A stretch of 64,000 nt of DNA from Euzebyella marina (lineage in GTDB: Bacteria; Bacteroidota; Bacteroidia; Flavobacteriales; Flavobacteriaceae). Within the stretch, counting starts at the first letter, position 1. Each line of letters opens with the position of its first letter. The stretch covers positions 62,001 through 126,000 of the forward strand of contig NZ_JACYFK010000001.1 of assembly GCF_014855515.1 (NCBI RefSeq). Reading direction: 5' to 3'. Below the pieces are notes generated by a model that was not told the DNA's origin, searched no databases, and saw only the letters and a program-made list of their open reading frames with translations. Position numbers and translations under genes: made by a program. Shown here piece after piece: positions 901 to 52,492 of this stretch.

Positions 901-3900
901 ATGAAAATGACTCTTAAACTACTACACAAAGCACTTGCGCTACTTGTGTTCGCCTTTACAATAGGTGCTGGAGCGCAAGAAATTGAGGTGTCGGGAACGG
1001 TTTCCGATACCGGGGGCATTCCCATCCCGGGGGCCAACGTTATCATTCAAGGCACACAGACAGGTACCGCTTCCGACTTTGACGGTAACTACACCATTAG
1101 CGTAAGTCCCGGGCAAATTTTGGTGTTCTCTTCCATTGGTTTTAAAACAGTTGAAAGAACTGTTGGCCAATCTACGACCATTGACGTGCAGATGGAGGAA
1201 GACAGTGCCCTTTTGGAAGAAGTAGTGGTCGTCGGCTACGGCTCAACTAGTAAAGCCGATGTTACAGGTGCCATCGTGGGTGTAAGCTCTGAAGAAATCA
1301 GCTCTCGGCCAGTAAATAATGCGGTCGAGGCCATGCAAGGTAAGGCTGCAGGTGTAGATATTTCATCTAACGAACGACCCGGTAGTGTCGGTAGCATAAC
1401 CATTCGAGGGGTGCGTTCTCTTTCAGCATCGAACTCTCCTCTTTATGTATTGGATGGTATTCCCTTGACTTCTGGGGGAATTGAGAACATTAACCCGACC
1501 GACATCGAATCGATCAACATTCTAAAAGATGCATCCGCTACGGCAATCTTCGGTTCGCGAGGTGCTAACGGGGTGGTCATTGTAACCACCAAAAAAGGTA
1601 AAACAGGTCGTTTTAACTTAAACTACAATACTTCGGTAACCGTTGAAAATCTTGATGAGATGGCCGCTCAATTTAATGCCGGTGAATACGTTGATTACCG
1701 TCGTTGGGCCAAATATTATGAAAACTCTGAAACCTACCCAAGGGGAGACCAGCCAACACAAGCCAATGACGCCGCTATTTTTTCAGGTGACGACACAGCT
1801 TTCAATAACATTCTTAGAGGCTGGGAAGGTGGCACCTGGGATGGTTCGAAACTTATAACCACCGATTGGACGGACTTTGTGACCCGTACCGGAGTGACCA
1901 CTATGAATACCTTAAGTGCCAGTGGAGGTACCGAGCGTATGAAGGCTTATGGTTCTTTTGGGTACATGAACAATACGGGTACCGTTGTGGGTCAAAGTTT
2001 TGAACGTTATAATACCAATGTAAGCGTAGACATTGAAGCTACCGATTGGTTTACCTTAGGTGGAAACATCAATGCGGCTTTCAGTACTCAGGAATACGGG
2101 CAGTCAACAGCAGGTGGAGCCGGGGTGTCTTTGCAAAGTGGTCTTTACCAAAGTGCGCGTAGCATCTTTCAGTACACCTTGCCCTATGACAGTGCCGGAA
2201 ACAGAATAGAGTTTCCAGGTGGCGACATTGCCGTAAAAACAATCATTGATGAGGTAAAGTATTCTCAAGATCAAAGAGTGACCGTCCGTGCCTTTGGAAG
2301 TTTCTACGGAGAGCTCAATCTAGGAAAAATGATTTCCGGATTGGACGGATTGCGGTTCCGTACCAATTTCGGACCTGACATTCAAACTGTTCGAAACGGA
2401 TCATATTTAGACGGACTTTCAGTAGCCAGGAATGGTTCTAGTTTCGCCTCCCTTGCAAAAGAACAAAGACTATCCTATACCTTGGACAACCTTATTTACT
2501 ATGATAAGGTACTAAACAAACACACTTTGGGTCTGACCTTATTACAAAGTCAAACCCAATATAGGGCCGAATCAAACCTAATGTCAGCTGACAACGTACC
2601 TTTTGCCAGTCAAAAATGGAACGCGTTAAGTAGTGACAACGTAGCCTTAGCCAACTGGGAATCGGATTTAGTGGAAAGGCAATTACTATCTTATATGGCA
2701 CGTGTGAATTATGGTTATGATAATAAATACTTATTGACACTTTCCGGTCGTTATGATGGTGCGTCACAGTTGGCCGATGGCAACAAATGGGCGTTTTTCC
2801 CCAGTGCGGCTCTAGGTTGGAGTTTGGATAAGGAGAACTTTTTGGCCGAAAGCAATTGGGTGGATCAATTAAAGCTCCGTTTTGGTGTTGGGGTTACCGG
2901 TAACTCTGCAATTGACCCTTATTCGACCCAAGGAGGTCTTATACCTCTCTTCTACCCTGTGGGTAACACAACGACTGCAGGTATAGAGAATGCAGAAACT
3001 CTGGCCAATCAAGACTTAGGTTGGGAACAAACAACACAGTACAACTACGGTCTTGACTTTTCTTTCTTTGCAGGCAGGTTGTCAGGTGGTCTAGATTACT
3101 ATCACTCCAATACGACCGACCTATTGTTAAGAAAATCGGTACCTACCGTTACCGGATATAGAGATACCTTTGCCAATGTGGGCGAAACCAACTCAAAAGG
3201 TATCGATTTAACATTGAATACGGTCAATGTTCAGACCGATAGTTTTGAATGGTCTACCAACTTTAGTGGGTCATGGCAAGACAATGAGATTGTAACCCTG
3301 GCCAATGGTAATGAAGACGATTTAGTCAACGAATGGTTCATTGGTGAATCACAAAGTGTTATTTATAACTATGCCTCTAATGGCATCTGGCAAGAATCGG
3401 ACGCCGAAGAAATGGCACGATTCAATGCCAATGGACATACTTTTACTGCAGGTAACGCTAGACCGGTTGACCAAAATGGCGATTATGTAATCGATGCCAA
3501 CAATGATAGAGTCATCATTGGTAGCCAGATTCCCAAATATATTGTGGGTCTCACCAATACGTTCAACTATAAAGGTGTTGAATTATCGATTTTTCTTTTC
3601 GGAAGAATGGGCTACACCTACAACACCGGTGGTGAAGGTTTAGTGGGTAGGTACAATTCAAGAAAGGTAGATTATTATACCGTTGCCGATACCAACTCAG
3701 AATACCAAAAACCTATTTACTCTGCCGGTTACGGAGATCAATATTATGAGACACTTGGTTATAGAAGTGGGTCTTTTCTAAAAGTGAGAAACATCTCATT
3801 AGGATACAATTTACCTAACAAGTTGACCGAAAAATTAGGGCTCTCTACCTTCAGATTTTATGCACAGGCAACCAACCCGGGTATGTTATTCTCGAAAGTA

Positions 3901-31534: not shown

Positions 31535-34500
31535 TTAAAAATTAGCTTTGACCCCTAACAGGAAAGATTTATTTATTAAATACCCTGAAAAGCGCAAATT
31601 TTGCTCTGGGTCGATACCATCGATAAGGTTATCAAATGTAAAAATGTCATTGCCTGATATGTAAATTCTCAATTTTGAGAATCCGGAATCTCCAAAAATA
31701 TCAGATGGAAGGGTATAGCCAAAAGTGAGGTTCTTTATTCTTAAGTAAGACCCATCTACCAACCAATAATCCGAGAAACGATAGTTGTTACTTGACGCAT
31801 TTTCAGACAACCTAGGGTATTTCACGCTTTGGTTTTGCGATGCAGAATTATAAACACTCCAGTAACTATCGGCATACTCAAAAGATGGAGACAACCACGT
31901 TTCAAGAAAAGGCCTTATATAATTTTGAGCCAAGTAAAAACTCTGCTTTCCTACACCCTGAAAAGTAAGTCCTAAGTCAAAATTTTTATAATTCAAGTTG
32001 AACGTTCCCCCATATTGGTAACGGGGTAGAGAACCATCAAGAACTGTTCGATCCAATTCGTTTATAACGCCATCAGGAACACCTTCGGGACCACTAATAT
32101 CTTTATACTTTATATCACCTGGACCAACAGCATCGCTGGTGACAGGTGAAGCATCGACTTCATCTTGGGTTTGAAACAACCCATCTGATTGATAGCCATA
32201 CCAAGACTGGTATTCAACACCAGTTTCGGAGAGCAACCTATCATCATATTCAAAAATTCTTTTTCCCCTAACATCACCAATAATCGATTGCGAATCGAAA
32301 AAATTCGTAGTTATAGAATATCTCCAATCTCCTATTTGATCCTTCCATCCCAAGGCGATTTCCCAACCATCAGAATCCATACTACCTACATTTACAGTTG
32401 GATCATCGTATCCGCTCAAAGACGGTATACTTAAATCAAGAAGCATATCTGTAGTCTCTTTTTTGAAATAATCTGCAGTTAAAGACAACCTACTATTGAA
32501 CATGTTAAGATCGATACCAAAATTTAAAGAGGTAGTTGTTTCCCAAGTTACATCCTCGATTGCCAGAAAGCGTTGCGCAGCAGCCCTAACGGCTTCAACA
32601 TTTGATCCATTGGCGAGTAGAACGTCGCTAAATTGCAAAACCGATTGATAAAGGTAATTGCCCAATCTGTCGTTACCTAAACTTCCATAAGACGTCCTGA
32701 ATTTCAAAAAAGAAATTGCTGGGTCTAATGATTGCATGAAACCTTCATTGGAAATTACCCACCCCAAAGAAACTGATGGGAAAGTACCCCATCGATAGTC
32801 TTTTCCAAATCTTGAAGAACCATCTCTTCGCACCGTACCCTGTAAATAATAAGTATTATCATAATTATACTCAAGCCTACCAAAATAAGAGGAATAGGCA
32901 TTTTCGGAAAAAGATGTTCCGCTACCGCCAGTTTCATTAAAGACCTTGTCTATAGGAGCTTGGTTCAAAAACGGATAATCGTTGCTTACAAATTCATTAC
33001 CTTGAACCGAAAGTCTTTCAAATTTATTTGAGAACTCTTCATAACCTATAACACCACTAATGTTGTTATTGCCAAAAGACTTATCGTAATTTACCAAAGC
33101 CTGTGTCGTCAAGGTGTTGGTATTGGCCCTTCGTTCGGTCAACCTTCTTTGGGCTTCATTATGATTGGAAATATAACCCGGGGCGGCCAGTTGTTCGGGG
33201 TCTGTAGCTGCCCAATAAGGTATTGCCCGATTAAAGGACTTATATTTGTTAAATTCAAAATTTGGCGCCAAGTTGACCGAAATCTTAAGTTCTTCAATTG
33301 GCTTATACCAAACACTTGCCATACCATAAATCAGATAAGAATCGCTAGAGGAAAATCCTCCATCAACAAGCCTAGCGTAAGTATTATCGCCAGACTTGCT
33401 TTCTGCTATTCTTCCATCTTGCCATATTGGCGCATATATCGGACCTGATTGAATCGCTCTTGAAGTAGGATCTATTACAGGTTGATCATCCTTGGTGATT
33501 TTTAAGGCGAAATCTACATTACCACCAAACTTTTCTGAGATTTTTATATCGTTGTTTACCCTAGCCGTATAACGCTTCCAATCTCGATGATTATATAGGG
33601 CGTCCTGAAATTCGTATCCTACATTGATATTGGTCTTGAGTTTTTCAGTTCCGCCACTCATGGTAATATTATGTCTATAACCCGATGAAGATTTTCTAAG
33701 TATCAAACTCCTCCAATCAAAGTCTGGGTATTGATCAGGATTTTGTGCATTAAGAGCGGGATAATTCTCTATCAAATCTTGAGGCCACAAGGGAAATTCA
33801 TTCTCACCATTCCCATTATCGTTCCATGATTTTTCATTATCCATTCGCATATAAGGAATTGCACTTACAGTACCTCTAAGTTCGGTTGGTGTGTTAACCA
33901 TATATTCACCGCTATAGCCTAAACTAAAGACGCCCGACTTGGCTCTTTTTGTAGTTATAATGACAACACCTGCAGCTGCTCGGGAGCCATAAATAGACGC
34001 AGCAGCTCCGTCCTTTAAAATTGAAATGCTTTCGATTTGGTCGGGATTCACATCATCTATATTTGAAACAGGAACATTGTCAACTAAAACCAAAGGGGCA
34101 CTGGCTCCTTGAAGAGTGGTTACACCACGAATCAAAATATTACTTCCGGACCCGGGCGCCGAACCACTTCTAGTAACACTAACACCAGCTACAGCACCCT
34201 GTAAGGCATTCGACACATTGGTTACACTTCTCGACTCGACGGCCGCTCCGTCAATAACACTAACAGAACCGGTTAAATCTTTCTTCGTTTGAGTTCCATA
34301 ACCGATTACTACCACTTCTTCTAAACCTGCTGCACTTTCCTGTAATATTACAGCTAGTGATTTTTGACCATTTACAGGTACATCTTGAGTTTCAAAACCA
34401 ATGTAAGAAACCGTTAATTCTGCACTAGGGTCATTGAGTATGATCGAAAAATTACCATCAAAATCGGTTTGGGTACCATTAACAGTTCCTTTCTCAACAA

Positions 34501-34972
34501 TATTGGCGCCTGCAAGGGGCAGACCACTTTCATCGGTGACCTTTCCGGTAACAGGTTCTTGCTCATCCGGCAAAACAAACACCTTTCTTTCAGGGTCCGC
34601 CGATTTTTCATTTCTCCTTAAGAGAATTTTACGATCATCCAGTTCATAACTTGTTTCTTCTCCCTTGAACAATTTTCTTAAAACCTCGCCTATAGTGGCT
34701 TTTTTTGTTTTTATAGTGACCCTTCGGGCTAGATTGACTGCATCAGTATGGTAAAAAAATTTAAACTCGGTCTTGGATTCAATTGCATCAAGAACTTCTC
34801 TTAAGGTTGTGTTCTCTTTGTCCAATGAAATTTTAGTTCTCTGGGCATAAGAAGAATTTGCCTGAACTAAAAAACTTATGGTAAGAAAAAACAGAAGCGA
34901 AAACTTCATTTTTAGTTCATAATTAATTCGCCAAAGAGGTACGTTACCTCCCGACTTTGGTGGTTTTTTCAT
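31535..34972 (-). CDS. SusC/RagA-type transporter with STN signalling domain
   Basis: 1145 residues. A polar lead-in is followed by the signal segment (MKFSLLFFLTISFLVQA, ending near SYA-Q at about 44), an STN domain (about 45-118, with TLREVLDAIESKTEFKFFY), a carboxypeptidase-regulatory-like domain (about 140-215), the TonB-box-like LEEVVVIGYG, plug (LVLVDNVPV, SRAAAGVVIITTKRA) and barrel ending in ANF. The STN domain is the part that contacts FecR in sigma-regulated loci, and the fecR gene lies immediately upstream. A polar N-tail before the signal is common in SusC proteins of this type, so ATG 34972 is kept; ATG 34909 is possible. Confidence 0.93.
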   Translation of the reverse strand: MKKPPKSGGNVPLWRINYELKMKFSLLFFLTISFLVQANSSYAQRTKISLDKENTTLREVLDAIESKTEFKFFYHTDAVNLARRVTIKTKKATIGEVLRKLFKGEETSYELDDRKILLRRNEKSADPERKVFVLPDEQEPVTGKVTDESGLPLAGANIVEKGTVNGTQTDFDGNFSIILNDPSAELTVSYIGFETQDVPVNGQKSLAVILQESAAGLEEVVVIGYGTQTKKDLTGSVSVIDGAAVESRSVTNVSNALQGAVAGVSVTRSGSAPGSGSNILIRGVTTLQGASAPLVLVDNVPVSNIDDVNPDQIESISILKDGAAASIYGSRAAAGVVIITTKRAKSGVFSLGYSGEYMVNTPTELRGTVSAIPYMRMDNEKSWNDNGNGENEFPLWPQDLIENYPALNAQNPDQYPDFDWRSLILRKSSSGYRHNITMSGGTEKLKTNINVGYEFQDALYNHRDWKRYTARVNNDIKISEKFGGNVDFALKITKDDQPVIDPTSRAIQSGPIYAPIWQDGRIAESKSGDNTYARLVDGGFSSSDSYLIYGMASVWYKPIEELKISVNLAPNFEFNKYKSFNRAIPYWAATDPEQLAAPGYISNHNEAQRRLTERRANTNTLTTQALVNYDKSFGNNNISGVIGYEEFSNKFERLSVQGNEFVSNDYPFLNQAPIDKVFNETGGSGTSFSENAYSSYFGRLEYNYDNTYYLQGTVRRDGSSRFGKDYRWGTFPSVSLGWVISNEGFMQSLDPAISFLKFRTSYGSLGNDRLGNYLYQSVLQFSDVLLANGSNVEAVRAAAQRFLAIEDVTWETTTSLNFGIDLNMFNSRLSLTADYFKKETTDMLLDLSIPSLSGYDDPTVNVGSMDSDGWEIALGWKDQIGDWRYSITTNFFDSQSIIGDVRGKRIFEYDDRLLSETGVEYQSWYGYQSDGLFQTQDEVDASPVTSDAVGPGDIKYKDISGPEGVPDGVINELDRTVLDGSLPRYQYGGTFNLNYKNFDLGLTFQGVGKQSFYLAQNYIRPFLETWLSPSFEYADSYWSVYNSASQNQSVKYPRLSENASSNNYRFSDYWLVDGSYLRIKNLTFGYTLPSDIFGDSGFSKLRIYISGNDIFTFDNLIDGIDPEQNLRFSGYLINKSFLLGVKANF

Positions 34973-35016
34973 AATTTTGAATGTTTATTTGTGATTACGT
35001 AAAGTGATCATTCACT

Positions 35017-35050
35017 AAATCGGGAAATGTTGCAGCATTTTCCGATTTTT
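35017..35050 (+). terminator. Antisense-strand intrinsic terminator in the fecR-susC gap (locus 3)
   Basis: Arms 35017-35029 and 35036-35048 pair over 13 positions with hexaloop TTGCAG; T-run 35046-35050. The fecR and susC genes are on the minus strand, so this terminator acts on antisense RNA. The one non-Watson-Crick position (35024/35041) is G-U in plus-strand RNA but A-C in sense RNA, favouring the antisense reading. Likely the 3' end of a cis-antisense RNA starting within or near the susC 5' end. Confidence 0.65.
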
Positions 35051-35114
35051 AGTTTAGGCACTTAAGTAAAGATGCCTTTATATGGTCGGTCATTTATGTT
35101 CTATTCGCATGTTC

Positions 35115-36284: not shown

Positions 36285-36400
36285 TTATCAACTAGTCTTT
36301 TTAATACTACAAGTGACATTTACAATACCCTAACATATTTTTGTTTTTTTTTTCATAATCGCATAATTTTTATTGTTTATTTGTGAAATACCCACAACAA

Positions 36401-38528: not shown

Positions 38529-38824
38529 GACTAAATAACTTTGGTAGGGTTGGTATTGGTGACTAAAATAGGCTTCTTTATTCAACACACCTAGAGAATT
38601 ACAAATCAAAAAAGCTGAAAACACCTTTTAGACATTGATTTGAAGGAACCTGCACTTAATCCTTCATATTCTATTTTAGAATAATTCATTCCTCTCCTCC
38701 CCAGACGCAACACACAATTTTAACACTTAAAAATGCGACTCATAAGAAACCTCACAGAAAGTAATCTTCTCGTTAATTAAGAATTTGTAAATTGCCGCCG
38801 CAAATTGTTTCGTATCCGAAAAAT
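38529..38824. other. Divergent intergenic region between sulfatase and sigma factor
   Basis: 296 bases with no gene. It must contain the promoters of both flanking genes. I see no exact TAnnTTTG box with a correctly spaced TTTG on either strand, and no convincing operator. Confidence 0.6.
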
Positions 38825-39406
38825 ATGATGCCAGAATATTCGCAGAATGTTAAAATCAAAACTTCCTCTCCTCATAGTGGTGAAGACGATTTTAACACTA
38901 TGTACAAATTCTATAAACCCAAATTGTTTGTTATCGCGAACAGCTACATCTCTTCAAAAGAAGACGTAGAAGAGATTGTTCACGATGTATTGATCAAACT
39001 TTGGGAGAAAAAAGACAAGCTAAACGTAAAGTCTAACTTTACCGCCTATGTCTATAGCATGACGCGCAATGCCTGTCTAGATTACCTAAGAGCGCGCAAA
39101 AACAAGCTATCAAAAGAATTAAGTGCAGACCAGCAAGAGTATTGGCTCAACTACTCGGCCCTTGCCGATGATGCAGCATCCAATATTATAGCAGACGAGC
39201 TTCAACATCTGGTCGATAATACCATTCAAGACCTACCCGAGAAATGCAAAAGAGTATTTCAAAAAAGTAGAATAGATGGTTTGGCACATAAGCAGATTTC
39301 AAAAGAAATGGAGATTTCTACAAAAACGGTAGAAAACCATATCACCAAGGCCTTACGAGAGCTCAAAACTGCCTTAAAGGAGTACCTTCCTCTATTTTTA
39401 TTCTAA
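38825..39406 (+). CDS. ECF sigma factor (FecI-like)
   Basis: 193 residues from ATG 38825 (a second ATG follows at once; the frame is open to a TTG at 38792). Region 2 contains YISSKEDVEEIVHDVLIKLW; region 4 contains LPEKCKRVFQKSR and HKQISKEMEISTKTVENHI. It lies 71 bases before the fecR gene on the same strand, the standard sigma, anti-sigma, susC, susD order. It would activate the susCD of locus 4. Confidence 0.93.
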   Translation: MMPEYSQNVKIKTSSPHSGEDDFNTMYKFYKPKLFVIANSYISSKEDVEEIVHDVLIKLWEKKDKLNVKSNFTAYVYSMTRNACLDYLRARKNKLSKELSADQQEYWLNYSALADDAASNIIADELQHLVDNTIQDLPEKCKRVFQKSRIDGLAHKQISKEMEISTKTVENHITKALRELKTALKEYLPLFLF

Positions 39407-39477: not shown

Positions 39478-40422
39478 ATGAACAAAAGGGATATTAAAGC
39501 CTTAATTGAAGGAAAACTTTCGGGCAACCGAAAGCAGGAAGTCATAAAATGGCTCCTGAAAAATCCGCAGCAACAGCAACGTTACAACAAAATGAAAGCT
39601 GAACATGTTGCTCGGCTTTTGAGGTCTTCCGAACCCGATTCCCTAAATACCGCAAAACGCAGGAGAAATAATTTATACCAATTACTTGGCTATGCAGCTG
39701 TAGTATTAGTGCTTTTCTCACTATCCTTTTTATTCTTGCCATCAGAGAAACCTAGTGAGGTCACCATACCGCAAATAGTACAAACCGCTACGGCCATTGG
39801 TGAGAATAGAACGATTGAATTACCCGACGGATCTAAAATAACACTGAACGCGAACACTTCCTTATCATTTCCTCAGACGTTTTCAGATACGATTCGAGAA
39901 GTAAGCCTAAGCGGCGAAGCTTTCTTTGATGTTACCCATGATTCCGACAGGCCTTTTATTGTTTCAACCGATAACGGAATGAAAATTCAGGTATTGGGCA
40001 CTACTTTCAACGTAAAGTCGTACCCTGAAGACCAAAATGTAGAAACCACCTTGGTTTCCGGGAAGGTCAGGGTAGTAGAAGAAAAAGACCATAAGACCGT
40101 AGTGCTTAACCCTTCGCAAAGGGCCACCTATGACAAGAACGAAGACAAGTTGATTGTCGACAAAGTAGAAACGGAAAACTTGACCGCTTGGCGATTGGGA
40201 AAATTGGTCTACGACGAAACCCCGATTCATCAGGTCATACGTGATTTACAGAGAAGGTTCAGCATATCGATTTCGGTCGAATCACCCGAAATAATGAATT
40301 ATGAGTACACGGGAACTTTCGACAACCTTTCTATAGAACAGATTATGGACCTCTTTGAGGTTTCATCACCCATACTTTATAAAAAGAACAATAATAAAAT
40401 CACCTTGTATATGAATAAATAG
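39478..40422 (+). CDS. FecR-type anti-sigma factor
   Basis: 314 residues, normal length. Cytoplasmic head, one membrane helix (about 69-87), periplasmic FecR core with NRTIELPDGSKITLNANTSL, stated in part as LPDGSKITLNANTSL, GEAFFDVTHD and VLGTTFNVKSY, and a C-terminal DUF4974 domain (IHQVIRDLQRRFSISI). It controls the sigma factor immediately upstream and is read by the STN domain of the SusC 98 bases downstream. Confidence 0.94.
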   Translation: MNKRDIKALIEGKLSGNRKQEVIKWLLKNPQQQQRYNKMKAEHVARLLRSSEPDSLNTAKRRRNNLYQLLGYAAVVLVLFSLSFLFLPSEKPSEVTIPQIVQTATAIGENRTIELPDGSKITLNANTSLSFPQTFSDTIREVSLSGEAFFDVTHDSDRPFIVSTDNGMKIQVLGTTFNVKSYPEDQNVETTLVSGKVRVVEEKDHKTVVLNPSQRATYDKNEDKLIVDKVETENLTAWRLGKLVYDETPIHQVIRDLQRRFSISISVESPEIMNYEYTGTFDNLSIEQIMDLFEVSSPILYKKNNNKITLYMNK

Positions 40423-40429
40423 AAACTAA

Positions 40430-40468
40430 CAAAAAAAGAAGAGGAAAGTGCGGCAACACCCTCCTCTT
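40430..40468 (-). terminator. Antisense-strand intrinsic terminator in the fecR-susC gap (locus 4)
   Basis: On the minus strand, arms 40468-40457 and 40450-40439 form a continuous 12-base stem with hexaloop TTGCCG, followed by C and seven Ts (40437-40431). Positions 40460/40447 and 40461/40446 are G-U pairs in minus-strand RNA but A-C mismatches in sense RNA. The genes here run on the plus strand, so the terminator serves antisense RNA. Confidence 0.7.
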
Positions 40469-40520
40469 TGGAAAATTATTTAACTACCTAGTAATTAAAC
40501 AACTTAAACTATTCAAAATT

Positions 40521-43500
40521 ATGGAAAAAAAGGATCATTTTTTTTCAAAGGTCCCTATTATCAGGATAATGAAAATCTACGTCGTCTTAGTGGCCATTAC
40601 TCTGGGCAAATTATTTGCTTCTGAGGTCAATGCCCAAAACATCTCGTTAGAGTTAAACAACGTAAGGCTAAAGAAGATACTCAACGAAATCGAGCGCAAA
40701 AGCGAATTCAGCTTTTTTTACAACAACAGTATCATTGACGTCTACAAAAAGCAGTCTTTGAATGTCGAGAACAAGAATCTTTCAGAAGTACTGGAAGCTC
40801 TTTTCGAAGATTCGAACATTGATTTTAGTTTCGTTCGTGATCAAATCATTTTATTTCCTAAAGACAGCCCGGAAATAAAAGAAAAAATCGAAAACCTATT
40901 GAACGGGCAAGTAGATAAACTGCCTTCGGTCTTGAGCCCGCAAAAAATCAACGAGCTCATTCAGACCAATGTACAATTTACTGTTCAAGGGGTTGTTACC
41001 GATAATGCGGGTACCCCAATACCGGGTGTTTCCGTTGTGGTGAAAGGCACTTCAAAAGGTACTGCTACCGATTTTGATGGTAATTATAGTATCATGGCAG
41101 ATACCGGTGATGTTCTTTCTTTCAGTTACATCGGCTTTACTACCAAAGAAGTTGAGGTTCAAAGCGAGCAGACCATCAATGTTACCCTTGAGGAAAACGT
41201 TGACGCCCTTGAAGAGGTTGTCGTAGTCGGTTATGGTACTCAAAGAAAATCTGACCTTACTGGTGCCGTAAGCGCGGTAAGCAGCGAAGATCTTTTAAAA
41301 GCTCCGGTAAATAACGCCCTTCAAGGTATGAGAGGTAAGGTTGCCGGTGTGAATGTGTTCTTGAACTCTGGTTCTCCTACGGGATCACCAAGAATCGTAA
41401 TTCGTGGTGTGGGAACCATCAACTCTTCATCTGACCCTCTTTATGTAGTGGATGGTGTTGTAATGGATGATATTAAGTTCATCAACCCTAACGATATTGA
41501 GCGTATGGAGGTTCTTAAAGATGCTTCCTCTGCTTCTATTTATGGTGCGCGTGGTGCCAACGGTGTTGTTTTGATCACTACCAAAAGAGGTGGTCAAGAA
41601 GGAAAAGTAACCATTGGTTATGATGGCTTTATCAGCGTTGGAAGCATTCGTAAAAAGATGGACCTTTTAAATGCAGATGAGTGGCTAGAGGTTGTTAGAA
41701 CAGGTATGGAGAACACTCCAAAATACCGTCCTGATTCTCCAGCTCCGGTATTTACTACGAACGATCCGAATCTATTTGATGCTAATGGCAACCCATTATA
41801 TGATACCGATTGGCAAGATGAGGCTACTAGAACTGCCTTTTCAACCAACCACCAATTATCGGTTCAGCAGGGTAACGAGAAATCTTCTGTGGGGGTTTTC
41901 CTTAACTATTCTCACGTTGAAGGTATCATGTTGAACAACAAGTTAGACCGTATCAGCGGTAAGATTGCCTATGATGTTACACCTAAAGATTGGTTGAAAA
42001 TCGGTGTAAACCTTATGGTGAACGATGTGAAGGATACTGAATTCGAAGAAGGTGGCGGTGGTCAAGTACCACGTAGAACGATGATCGAGATGCCTCCTAT
42101 CTTTCCGGTAAAATTCCCTGATGGAACATGGAGCAATAGCCAAATGATTTCAGATGCCTATAACTTGGAGTCTATGGCCAACCCTGTTCACGTATTGGAA
42201 ACACAAGAACGTTTCTGGGAAAGAAACCAGTTGTTCGGTAACTTCTACGTTAACTTCAACATTCTACCTGGTCTTGACTTCAGAACCCAATTCGGTTTTG
42301 ATAAGAACATCAGAAATAAAAAAGAATACTCTCCAAGAGATTTGGTCAACATTTCAGCACCTGATGGCTTTGGTAGAATATTCAACGAAAAAAGCACCTA
42401 CTGGCAGCAAGAAAATTACTTGACATACACCAATGATTTTGGTAAGCACAGAATCAACACCATGTTAGGTTTAAGCTGGCAAGAGCGTCAGTACGAGTCT
42501 TCTACTATCTTCGCAAGAGGGTTTAGCGATGATTTCTTCAAGTACAACAATATCGGTTCTGCCAGTAACCCTAGCGCACCCGAATCTGCTACTGAAGAAT
42601 GGGCATTGAACTCGTACTTCGTAAGGGCCGGTTATACTTTTGATGACAAATATCTGATTACTTTGACCGCAAGGGCCGATGGTTCTTCAAGGTTCGGTAA
42701 AGACAACAAGTATGGTTTCTTCCCATCCATCGGTGCTGGTTGGAATATCAATGAAGAATCGTTCATGGAGAACCTTGAGTTCATCAACCGTTTGAAATTA
42801 CGTGGTAGTTACGGTATCACCGGTAACACTGAAATTCCTCCTTACAGCTCTTTGGCAACCGTTTCTGCCGGAACTGTTTTGTTGAACGGTACCCGTGTTA
42901 GCTCTAGTTCTGTTAACAGATTGGCCAACCCAGGTTTGGAATGGGAAAAGACAAGCCAGTTTGATATAGGTCTTGATTTAGCGGCCTTCAATTACCGTTT
43001 ACGTTTTGAATTCGATTACTACGACAAATTGACCAAAGATCTATTGTTAGATAGACCGGTACCTTATACTTCAGGGTTTACCTCTGTAAGAGATAATATC
43101 GGTTCTGTTTCCAACAAAGGTATCGAGGCCATGGTTTCTGGAGAAATTATTCGTGGTACCGATTTCGGATGGGAATCTTCATTCAACATGAACTACAACA
43201 AGAACACCATCGAGAGTTTGGGTGAAAATGATGAGGATATCGAGCCAGGTCCGTTTTGGGTATCAGGTAGCCAGACAATCCTTCGTGTAGGTGAATCTCT
43301 AAGTTCATTCTATGGCTATGAGCGATTGGGCACTTGGGGAACCGACGAAGTAGCTGAAGCTGCTGAAGTGGGTGCAGTACCTGGTGAAGCTAAGCGTTCT
43401 GCTGATAAGAGAATTCTTGGTAAAGGTTTACCTGATGTTACCGGTAGCTTTATCAACAACTTTAGATATAAGAATTTTGACTTCACGGCCGATATTCAAT

Positions 43501-43943
43501 TTGTTGCCGGTGTTGAAATCATGCAGCAGTACTACCACTCTACTGAAGACCGTTCAGGTATCGCCAACGGTTTGGCAAGTATTCTTTATGACGGATGGAC
43601 CGAGGACAATCAGAACACCATGGTTCAGGAAATCAGAAACCAAGCTTACGCCGGGCAGAACAGCCAGGTTGACAGCAGATGGGTAGTTGACGGGTCTTAC
43701 ATTAGAGGTAACCTTTTCTCTTTAGGTTACAATTTCGATCAGCAATTCTTAGATCTATTCGGTTTCAATAGCCTTAGGGTTTACGCAAGTTTGGAGAATG
43801 CTTTTGTAATCCATTCAAAAGACTTCCAAGGATATGATCCGGAAGCTTCTTCTTGGGACAATAACCAGTGGGGACAGAATATTTTTTTCTTCCAGTACCC
43901 AAAACCAAGAACTTTCACCTTGGGTTGTAGCCTTAAATTTTAA
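40521..43943 (+). CDS. SusC/RagA-type transporter with STN signalling domain
   Basis: 1140 residues. Polar N-tail then signal (MKIYVVLVAITLGKLFA, cut near VNA-Q about 39), STN domain (about 40-115, RLKKILNEIERKSEFSFFY), linker, carboxypeptidase-regulatory-like domain (about 150-230), EEVVVVGYGTQ TonB-box region, plug (LYVVDGVVM, GARGANGVVLITTKR) and barrel. Codon choice leans to C-ending forms (AAC, TTC, TAC) and GGT more than in the SusC at 31535-34972, which suggests strong expression. The stop shares bases with an in-frame upstream ATG of susD (TAATG). Confidence 0.94.
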   Translation: MEKKDHFFSKVPIIRIMKIYVVLVAITLGKLFASEVNAQNISLELNNVRLKKILNEIERKSEFSFFYNNSIIDVYKKQSLNVENKNLSEVLEALFEDSNIDFSFVRDQIILFPKDSPEIKEKIENLLNGQVDKLPSVLSPQKINELIQTNVQFTVQGVVTDNAGTPIPGVSVVVKGTSKGTATDFDGNYSIMADTGDVLSFSYIGFTTKEVEVQSEQTINVTLEENVDALEEVVVVGYGTQRKSDLTGAVSAVSSEDLLKAPVNNALQGMRGKVAGVNVFLNSGSPTGSPRIVIRGVGTINSSSDPLYVVDGVVMDDIKFINPNDIERMEVLKDASSASIYGARGANGVVLITTKRGGQEGKVTIGYDGFISVGSIRKKMDLLNADEWLEVVRTGMENTPKYRPDSPAPVFTTNDPNLFDANGNPLYDTDWQDEATRTAFSTNHQLSVQQGNEKSSVGVFLNYSHVEGIMLNNKLDRISGKIAYDVTPKDWLKIGVNLMVNDVKDTEFEEGGGGQVPRRTMIEMPPIFPVKFPDGTWSNSQMISDAYNLESMANPVHVLETQERFWERNQLFGNFYVNFNILPGLDFRTQFGFDKNIRNKKEYSPRDLVNISAPDGFGRIFNEKSTYWQQENYLTYTNDFGKHRINTMLGLSWQERQYESSTIFARGFSDDFFKYNNIGSASNPSAPESATEEWALNSYFVRAGYTFDDKYLITLTARADGSSRFGKDNKYGFFPSIGAGWNINEESFMENLEFINRLKLRGSYGITGNTEIPPYSSLATVSAGTVLLNGTRVSSSSVNRLANPGLEWEKTSQFDIGLDLAAFNYRLRFEFDYYDKLTKDLLLDRPVPYTSGFTSVRDNIGSVSNKGIEAMVSGEIIRGTDFGWESSFNMNYNKNTIESLGENDEDIEPGPFWVSGSQTILRVGESLSSFYGYERLGTWGTDEVAEAAEVGAVPGEAKRSADKRILGKGLPDVTGSFINNFRYKNFDFTADIQFVAGVEIMQQYYHSTEDRSGIANGLASILYDGWTEDNQNTMVQEIRNQAYAGQNSQVDSRWVVDGSYIRGNLFSLGYNFDQQFLDLFGFNSLRVYASLENAFVIHSKDFQGYDPEASSWDNNQWGQNIFFFQYPKPRTFTLGCSLKF

Positions 43944-43963
43944 TGCTTAAAAAAGAAAACATC

Positions 43964-45538
43964 ATGAAAATTAAATATATAGCTTGTTTAATAGGACTCG
44001 TTTTATTGGGGTCATGTGACGATTTCCTTGAAGAGGAACCGCTAAGCGAATTGAGCTCTGACCAGTTCTTTTCTGAGCCCGATCAGGCCTATAGTGCAGT
44101 TAACTCCTTATACAGAAACGGCGCACCTAACCTTACCGATGGTGGTGTATATAGTGGTACCCCATTAATGTTGGGCGCTTATATGAGCGGTTTCTTCACC
44201 AATGAGTACGCAGGTCAAGAATTACATGTAAGCAACACGCAACAATTGACCCTGAACGGTGATAACATCGGAGGTTATTTGCAGGATAGGTGGAGAGAAC
44301 TTTATCTAGGTATCTCAAGGGCCAATAACGCCATTAAATACATTCCTGAGACTCCAGACCTAACGGATGCTCAGCGTAACCAACTAATTGCCGAAGCCAA
44401 ATTCTTTAGAGCTTTTGCTTATTACTATTTGGTAAGATGGTTTGGGCCAGTGCCTTTGACTACCGAGCCTTACGAATCGTTGGATGGTCTTTATTTGGAA
44501 AGAAGCCCTATCGCCGATGTTTACGGTTTGATAGAGTCTGATCTTACCGATGCTTTGGAGCAAGGTAACTTACCCAAAACAACCATGGTCGATAACGGTA
44601 AAAGGGTAACTGCAGGTGCCGTGGCCACGTTACTTGCTGACGTTTATTTGACTATGAGCGGTAATCCTTTGAACGTTGATAGGTATGCCGATGCAGCTGG
44701 CTTGGCGCAAGACATTATCAATGGTGAATATGGTTCTTATGCATTGGTTCAGCACGATGAAGTTGATGGAGCTATAGACTTTGAGAATTCTGCTTATAAC
44801 AAGATCAGAAAGTCAGATGCATCTGCTAGCGAGCATATTTACATCAAAGAGTACGATCCAGAAATCGGTACGGCCGTATATCCAAGATACTCTTATCCTG
44901 TAGCTTTGGCTTCAGAAGTATTGTACGATATTACCAACGGTGCCTACCAACCTTCTGATCAATTCTTGAATTTCTATAATTCCGATATTGATCTTAGGGC
45001 GCAAGAAAGACAGTTCTTTCACAGTACTTACCTACCAACAGGTCAGACTTTCGAAACTGCTCCTTTCGTATGGCACGATGACACCGCAATTTTTGAAACT
45101 GCCAACTCAGGCAAAGATTTCGCAGTGTATAGCTACTCAGATGTATTGTTGATCGCTGCCGAAGCGATTGCCATGTCAAGTGGTGTAAACGCGAATGCAG
45201 TTGATTATTTGGCACAAGTACGTGGTAGAGCTTATTGGACGACCGATGCGACCACTATTACTTCTGAATTGTCAGGTTTGGGTACCGATGCTTTCGTTGA
45301 AGAGGTTTGGAAGGAAAGACATAGAGAATTGGTTTTCGAATTTAGAAACTGGTTCGACATCGTTCGTACAGGTCAATTTCCTGTAGCTGATGCTCCTGGA
45401 ACCATCTCTTTCGTGGCTGCTGTTGGACACACCACTGAAAACGGAAAACAAATTCAACAAAAACACATGTTATTACCCTTACCAGGGCCTGAACTACAGA
45501 GAAATCCTAGTTTAGGAAGCGATAACAACGGCTATTAA
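43964..45538 (+). CDS. SusD/RagB-family substrate-binding lipoprotein
   Basis: 524 residues from ATG 43964, giving a signal ending at Cys18 (LLGSC) followed by DDFLEEEPL, the acidic surface-export type. ATG 43943 overlapping the susC stop is an alternative and may serve coupling. SusD features: FFRAFAYYYLVRWFGPVPLT (in part AYYYLVRWFGPVP), YSDVLLIAAEAIA, WKERHRELVFEFRNWFDIVRT (in part RHRELVFEFRNWFDIV). The terminator at 45557-45590 closes the operon. With a sulfatase next to the sigma gene, a sulfated glycan is a reasonable guess. Confidence 0.93.
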   Translation: MKIKYIACLIGLVLLGSCDDFLEEEPLSELSSDQFFSEPDQAYSAVNSLYRNGAPNLTDGGVYSGTPLMLGAYMSGFFTNEYAGQELHVSNTQQLTLNGDNIGGYLQDRWRELYLGISRANNAIKYIPETPDLTDAQRNQLIAEAKFFRAFAYYYLVRWFGPVPLTTEPYESLDGLYLERSPIADVYGLIESDLTDALEQGNLPKTTMVDNGKRVTAGAVATLLADVYLTMSGNPLNVDRYADAAGLAQDIINGEYGSYALVQHDEVDGAIDFENSAYNKIRKSDASASEHIYIKEYDPEIGTAVYPRYSYPVALASEVLYDITNGAYQPSDQFLNFYNSDIDLRAQERQFFHSTYLPTGQTFETAPFVWHDDTAIFETANSGKDFAVYSYSDVLLIAAEAIAMSSGVNANAVDYLAQVRGRAYWTTDATTITSELSGLGTDAFVEEVWKERHRELVFEFRNWFDIVRTGQFPVADAPGTISFVAAVGHTTENGKQIQQKHMLLPLPGPELQRNPSLGSDNNGY

Positions 45539-52416: not shown

Positions 52417-52460
52417 TTTAGGTTTTCTATTAGTTTTTCAGGCTTTTAGTGAAATCTTCG

Positions 52461-52492
52461 GCCTTTTCTATTGGCGTAGAAAAGGCTTTTTT
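52461..52492 (+). terminator. Antisense-strand intrinsic terminator in the fecR-susC gap (locus 5)
   Basis: Perfect 10-base arms GCCTTTTCTA (52461-52470) and TAGAAAAGGC (52477-52486) with hexaloop TTGGCG are followed by six Ts (52487-52492) on the plus strand. The flanking fecR and susC genes run on the minus strand, where the same hairpin has an A-run before it and no T-run after it. Confidence 0.75.

Follow-up and report, generated by a model that had tools for sequence, protein, structure and literature searches.

The window examined here, a stretch of 64,000 nucleotides from Euzebyella marina, raises a question of strand: in the gap between a fecR and a susC gene lies a hairpin that faces the opposite direction, and it may be asked which RNA this hairpin would end and whether that RNA would act on susC. 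The genes of the locus, all on the plus strand, encode an ECF sigma factor (38792..39406, Pfam sigma-70 r2/r4), the FecR anti-sigma protein (39478..40422, Pfam FecR and FecR_C), SusC (40521..43943, Pfam STN, CarbopepD_reg_2, Plug and TonB receptor barrel), and SusD (43943..45538, Pfam). According to the sequence and the terminator scan, positions 40468-40431 of the minus strand are AAGAGGAGGGTG-TTGCCG-CACTTTCCTCTT-C-TTTTTTT, which is a 12-bp stem (40468-40439) with the loop TTGCCG, followed by a C and a run of seven T residues (40437-40431); this hairpin has the form of an intrinsic terminator for minus-strand transcription. Two stem pairs are G-U on the minus strand and A-C on the plus strand, and the T and G at the ends of the loop could form an extra wobble pair. 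An earlier sequence-only reading had given the 12-base stem, the T7 run, the wobble positions, the loops and the coordinates, all of which were right on re-reading the sequence. On the plus strand, a TATATG at 40408-40413, at the fecR stop, may be the ECF -10 of susC; TATG was located at most 70 nt upstream of the hairpin in 45 of 78 loci versus 14.3 expected in shuffles, and this putative ECF -10 is a lead.

Judged from sequence comparison, it is very probable that the hairpin at 40468-40431 ends a short cis-antisense RNA to the susC leader, which would be transcribed by sigma-A polymerase and probably lowers susCD expression. TAnnTTTG at -12 to -5 is described in PMC9723704 as the sigma-A -7 box of Flavobacterium psychrophilum. 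A match to it, TAATTTTG, was found at 40521-40514 on the minus strand; it shares the A of the susC start codon, and its last base is at 40514, where the plus strand has a C outside the coding sequence. With the box at -12 to -5 the predicted antisense start falls near 40509, 5 nt past the box. With this box-derived start and the terminator as the other end, the predicted RNA occupies 40431..40509 (-), is about 79 nt long, and is complementary to the susC leader, which it spans without reaching the coding region. The predicted fold contains two hairpins, the terminator and an AT-rich 5′ hairpin at 40473..40505 (-).

The strand on which the element acts was assessed over FecR loci from the genus, named genomes and 100 family genomes, of which 175 with a next gene gave 142 distinct loci; in 120 of these the gap measured 50-260 nt and the ORF after it was 150 aa or longer. 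At a cut of 20, terminators were called on the antisense strand only in 77 of the 120 gaps, on the sense strand only in 1, on both in 3, and on neither in 39; a lax cut of 18 gave sense-only calls in 6 of 80 loci (L077 and five Pedobacter loci). A strand-neutral hairpin finder, which scored G-T and A-C alike and required no T run, detected hairpins with a score of at least 20 in 88 of the 120 gaps versus 12 of 600 mononucleotide shuffles. The stems of these 88 hairpins, taken as antisense RNA, had 106 G-U versus 8 A-C pairs (shuffles, 15 versus 13), with G-U in excess in 72 hairpins, A-C in 2, and equal numbers in 14, and the larger T-tract was on the antisense side in 78 and on the sense side in 5. 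Because each G-U pair of the antisense RNA corresponds to an A-C mismatch in the sense RNA, selection acts on the antisense RNA; what had been proposed from two positions of a single stem is borne out by the 106 versus 8 pairs and by the direction of the T-tracts, although these locus counts are not independent because the loci are related. As a control, receptor genes without fecR had an antisense terminator in 1 of 28 cases (L201, bidirectional) and sense calls in 2 of 28. Within the family to which a Phocaeicola genome belongs (61 genomes; of 30 loci kept, 28 were usable and two had no next gene), the box was present in 3 of 28 fecR loci and the hairpins had 10 G-U versus 5 A-C pairs; two of the 28, L271 and L297, combined the box with such a hairpin.

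Antisense-direction hairpins were also found by the terminator scan in both other fecR-susC gaps of the window, at 35017-35048 (+) with the loop TTGCAG and at 52460-52487 (+) with the loop TTGGCG, in agreement with the claim that all three gaps carry one. The three hairpins ranked third to fifth among the 23 terminator-like sites listed between 34.9 and 54.8 kb, where shuffles gave 17.8. At the second locus, a predicted antisense RNA with approximate ends (34984..35054, +) includes the 35017-35048 terminator (48.1 bits with the covariance model described below), and a -7 box identified by sequence match, TAATTTTG at 34972..34979 (+), overlaps the start of susC (31535-34972, -). The third locus, at 52 kb, has no exact TAnnTTTG, the closest sequence being TAGGTTTT at 52419-52426. 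The stems had been taken as unrelated; those at 35 kb and 40 kb instead share one consensus, GGgaagUG-loop-CAcuucCC (48.1 and 46.6 bits), while the one at 52 kb scored 31.1 bits, all three window hairpins being among the model's own 55 sequences. It had also been stated that an STN-less susC of the window lacks the hairpin, and for the susC starting at 790 indeed no terminator was called on either strand between 561 and 850; however, the missing STN does not explain the absence, since the 52 kb SusC is likewise without Pfam STN (E<=1e-5) and has a hairpin in its gap.

In the whole genome of this strain, 11 FecR matches were found, 9 of them followed by a gap and a susC-type gene; the two left out were L009, whose fecR runs into its receptor gene, and L016, in which susC is not directly downstream of fecR. 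The terminator script called an antisense terminator in 6 of the 9 gaps and a sense terminator in none. Two further gaps had antisense terminators by eye, a bulged one in L010, which the covariance model finds at E 0.01, and one with a large loop in L011, while L013 had neither box nor terminator. CAAAnnTATG, the box as it appears on the sense strand, was present at the susC start in 7 of the 9, the exceptions being the 52 kb locus and L013. A third CAAAnnTATG match within the window, a TAnnTTTG box at 36336-36343 (+), precedes the second ECF sigma gene (36383) and is likely a housekeeping promoter.

The covariance model, R1, was built from 55 hairpins, L164 being omitted from the 56 listed; because the hairpins were chosen for pairing, their covariation was not used as proof. 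In the strain's own genome, the top four matches were fecR-susC gaps, all on the antisense strand. Three of these gaps were also matched, at lower scores, on the sense strand, the antisense versus sense values being 48.1 versus 29.7 bits (35 kb), 46.6 versus 22.3 bits (40 kb), and 42.4 versus 26.1 bits (another own-genome gap). A search of relatives' genomes with such a model had been suggested as a check on the sequence-only reading. In 60 family genomes it returned 52 matches at E<=0.001, these E-values being rough, in 17 genomes, and 46 of the 52 adjoined fecR, lying on the opposite strand and downstream of a FecR match by 250 nt or less. No match at E<=0.001 was obtained in the remaining 43 of the 60, though FecR was common. 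Thirty-eight of the matches were new to the model and 14 were its own sequences or places. A long receptor-like ORF followed in the sense direction after 29 of the 31 matches examined with their surroundings, starting 32-55 nt past the match in 28 and 106 nt in one; 27 of the 31 had an STN-profile ORF and 17 the exact box. Named hosts of the element include Zobellia amurskyensis, Pseudozobellia, Euzebyella, Dysgonomonas and an Odoribacteraceae bin. Searches of Rfam at gathering score gave no match for the window element or for the gaps of 19 loci, and the sub-threshold names were taken as chance.

Among the 52 matches, four (L327-L330) lie antisense before a gene with Plug and CarbopepD_reg_2 but no STN match and no fecR directly upstream, and two (L331, L332) resemble ordinary bidirectional terminators. 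The element is thus also found without fecR. Together with L256, L327-L330 form a group of SusC-type receptors that have the antisense hairpin and neither Pfam STN nor fecR directly upstream; CAAAnnTATG is present in four of these five, the exception being L329. In these receptors the sigma/FecR switch may have disappeared while the antisense RNA was retained; as receptors lacking STN and fecR still carry the element, the RNA may be able to outlive the switch.

These cases bear on the alternative that survives best, namely that the hairpin is an insulator and nothing else, a terminator that keeps stray antisense transcripts arising in susC from running on into fecR and the sigma gene, with no regulatory RNA involved. 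A directional terminator alone would yield both the T-tract and the G-U bias, and the -33 element of the predicted promoter is not conserved; but insulation gives no reason for the element before SusC-type genes that have no fecR directly upstream to protect, nor for the second hairpin, the -7 box at the start codon or the steady distance to the ATG. Over the 78 hairpins with a T-tract, the distance from hairpin to susC ATG had a median of 52 nt, with extremes of 0 and 117, and that from the fecR stop to the hairpin ranged from -2 to 145 nt. In the 61 hairpins with a hexaloop, the loop centre lay 63-73.5 nt upstream of the susC ATG and 24-74.5 nt downstream of the fecR stop (interquartile ranges). 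The steady spacing to the ATG and the variable spacing to fecR indicate that the element is anchored to susC and not to fecR, and insulation as the sole role is therefore considered quite unlikely. At these 78 loci, the antisense RNA has a median length of 77 nt as calculated from predicted ends.

CAAAnnTATG at the susC start corresponds to a TAnnTTTG that overlaps the ATG on the antisense strand. It was found in 62 of 120 fecR loci, but in none of 102 ordinary genes and none of 28 other TonB receptors; for the latter, 77 PF13715 matches provided 30 own-genome starts, and the two with the box were fecR loci already counted. With the C left free, the numbers were 82 of 120 loci versus 2 of 102 ordinary genes. 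The exact box is absent from 58 of the 120. Among 163 loci whose downstream protein matches the STN profile, 50 had both box and terminator, 16 the box only, 35 the terminator only, and 62 neither, so that box and terminator co-occur (OR 5.5, p 6e-7). A TTG at -33 with fixed spacing from the box was looked for and none was conserved, and a CAAA at +25 in 11 of the 62 box loci was taken as an orthologue-group effect. In the aligned orthologues of the 40 kb locus, TAnnTTTG was present in 12 of 12, and the box and the 5′ half of the RNA were nearly invariant. Synonymous identity of susC in nine orthologues was 0.93 for codons 1-10, 0.74 for codons 11-20, and 0.36-0.71 for the ten-codon blocks from 21 to 240, which indicates an extra constraint on the start of susC.

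It could be argued from the overlap with the start codon, the A-rich first codons and the lack of an evident -33 box that CAAAnnTATG is a signal of the sense strand, for translation initiation or as a regulator site, and that the antisense RNA, if made, starts elsewhere; the low synonymous change in codons 1-20 could likewise reflect translation initiation. Against this, none of the 102 generic genes and none of the 28 other receptors has the motif, and it co-occurs with the antisense terminator; this explanation is very unlikely. A second Met followed by Lys or Arg, situated between residues 10 and 32 and immediately ahead of the signal peptide, was observed in 56 of 62 SusC proteins with the box versus 26 of 58 without it. 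The first susC start (e.g. 40521-40620) may encode an N-terminal extension overlying the antisense promoter.

The predicted RNA itself folds well. The antisense 79-mer had a folding energy of -28.2 kcal/mol (z -6.1, none of 200 shuffles as good), versus -13.9 kcal/mol (z -2.1, 5 of 200 as good) for the sense strand of the same 79 nt. In 42 other loci that have both the box and the terminator, the segment preceding the terminator folded with a mean z of -3.2 versus mononucleotide shuffles. The second, 5′ hairpin was detected by the strand-neutral test in 40 of 73 loci with 67 G-U versus 11 A-C pairs, compared with 63 of 365 shuffles with 47 versus 28. In the terminator helix, 5 pairs were changed on both sides among the 12 orthologues; the covariation score for this set did not clearly exceed that of shuffles, 44 of 500 of which reached it, and further pair types were in no excess over shuffles (reached by 500 of 500). 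That the hairpin instead serves in the fecR-susC mRNA, for processing, stability or attenuation, is the least probable of the readings considered: the leader contains the same DNA, folds weakly, and has the few sense-only calls at the lax cut, but this is opposed by the T-tract on the antisense side, by the model scores at 35 kb and 40 kb, and mainly by the count of 106 G-U versus 8 A-C, on which a sense-strand element was set aside.

The cis-antisense RNA thus remains the preferred reading. Housekeeping sigma-A polymerase would start on the minus strand at the TAnnTTTG overlapping the susC start codon, transcribe back through the susC leader, and stop at the terminator just after fecR. The resulting two-hairpin RNA, fully complementary to the susC leader, would probably pair with it, loop-loop contact coming first, and this pairing would probably lower the translation or stability of susCD mRNA until the ECF sigma/FecR pathway supplies enough susCD mRNA to overcome this. 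Convergent transcription may contribute as well. The proposal that each sigma/FecR locus encodes a cis-antisense RNA at the 5′ end of susC is supported at the level of sequence, and what speaks for a DonS-like RNA is the G-U/A-C asymmetry, the T-tract, the ATG spacing, the start-codon box, the second hairpin and the specificity of the model.

The shared loop had been suggested to mark a common protein or RNA target. Among 52 distinct hexaloops, 18 were UUGNNG, 10 CNNCAA, 9 UNNCAG, 2 CUGNNA, and 13 others, so that the four related classes make up 39 of 52, versus 3 of 10 hexaloops of ordinary terminators with a comparable frame, a small control. The U...G and C...A types are mutually reverse complementary, and leader and antisense RNA therefore carry matching loops. 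Contact between leader and antisense RNA would be the simplest use of such loops, and they may serve a protein target; a reading as a YUNR U-turn, made by eye, was dropped as several loops do not fit. Because loops are shared and stems differ, the loops may start pairing in cis and permit weak cross-contact with other leaders. Whether all this represents one ancient RNA family of the Bacteroidota, a two-hairpin antisense RNA with its promoter over the susC start codon, a loop of U(UGNN)G or C(NNCA)A, and cross-contact among loci, is doubtful, and we regard it as rather unlikely; if true, nutrient receptors would share a common brake at the RNA level.

Bacterial antisense RNAs are often dismissed as noise. 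Here strand, promoter, spacing and terminator are all constrained at many loci, which argues for function. As far as sequence can tell, the PUL antisense control of Bacteroides would extend to marine Flavobacteriaceae and to loci of Chitinophagaceae, Pedobacter, Cytophagales and Bacteroidales, and the analysis yields a searchable model and the exact bases to mutate. The antisense design appears to recur at many sugar-uptake genes across the Bacteroidota and resembles asRNAs reported to damp such genes in gut Bacteroides.

Several known RNAs invite comparison. Flavo-1 (RF01705), described in PMC9723704 as a small structured motif widespread in Flavobacteriaceae, is also a small structured RNA, yet it gave no curated-score match to the window element or to the gaps of the 19 loci; two Flavo-1 matches were seen near a Pedobacter fecR locus, outside the gap (L121:1221-1339(-) and 1016-1108(+)). 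In the relevant part of that flavobacterial transcriptome paper (PMC9723704), such RNAs are suggested only as a starting point for functional studies. Our literature search, whose coverage excluded the founding description of DonS, found no report of the element in Flavobacteriaceae.

FopS and GibS of B. thetaiotaomicron, ligands of RbpB, are likewise small RNAs, and FopS has a 3′ terminator hairpin and represses a susC at its translation start in trans (PMC11697453). As described there, FopS acts through a shared 5′ seed and consists of a single-stranded 5′ stretch and one terminator, whereas the RNA predicted here would be cis-encoded, fully complementary and two-hairpinned. The FopS structure was deposited in Rfam according to the same source (PMC11697453); the Rfam searches of the window and the 19 loci gave no FopS match, and release 15 may not include its model.

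The closest resemblance is to the DonS family of Bacteroides fragilis and B. thetaiotaomicron. DonS-type loci typically possess ECF sigma and anti-sigma genes, and such genes, by Pfam, precede susC 40521. What the two have in common is that a short RNA lies antisense to the 5′ side of a susC homologue, as the terminator at 40468-40431(-) and the box at 40521-40514(-) indicate for the predicted RNA. DonS-type RNAs are described in PMC7366714 as antisense to susC homologues, on which they have a negative effect, and as 78-128 nt long, versus 77-80 nt from predicted ends here, and according to PMC10994844 the annotation of B. thetaiotaomicron contains 32 PUL-associated asRNAs. The hosts differ, Bacteroides for DonS and a flavobacterium for the predicted RNA. 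Comparison defined, for the RNA predicted here, a -7 box at the start codon, a fold of two hairpins and a loop of the UUGNNG type, features that DonS may or may not share. PUL cis-antisense RNAs are thus a known kind, and the new part is the architecture.
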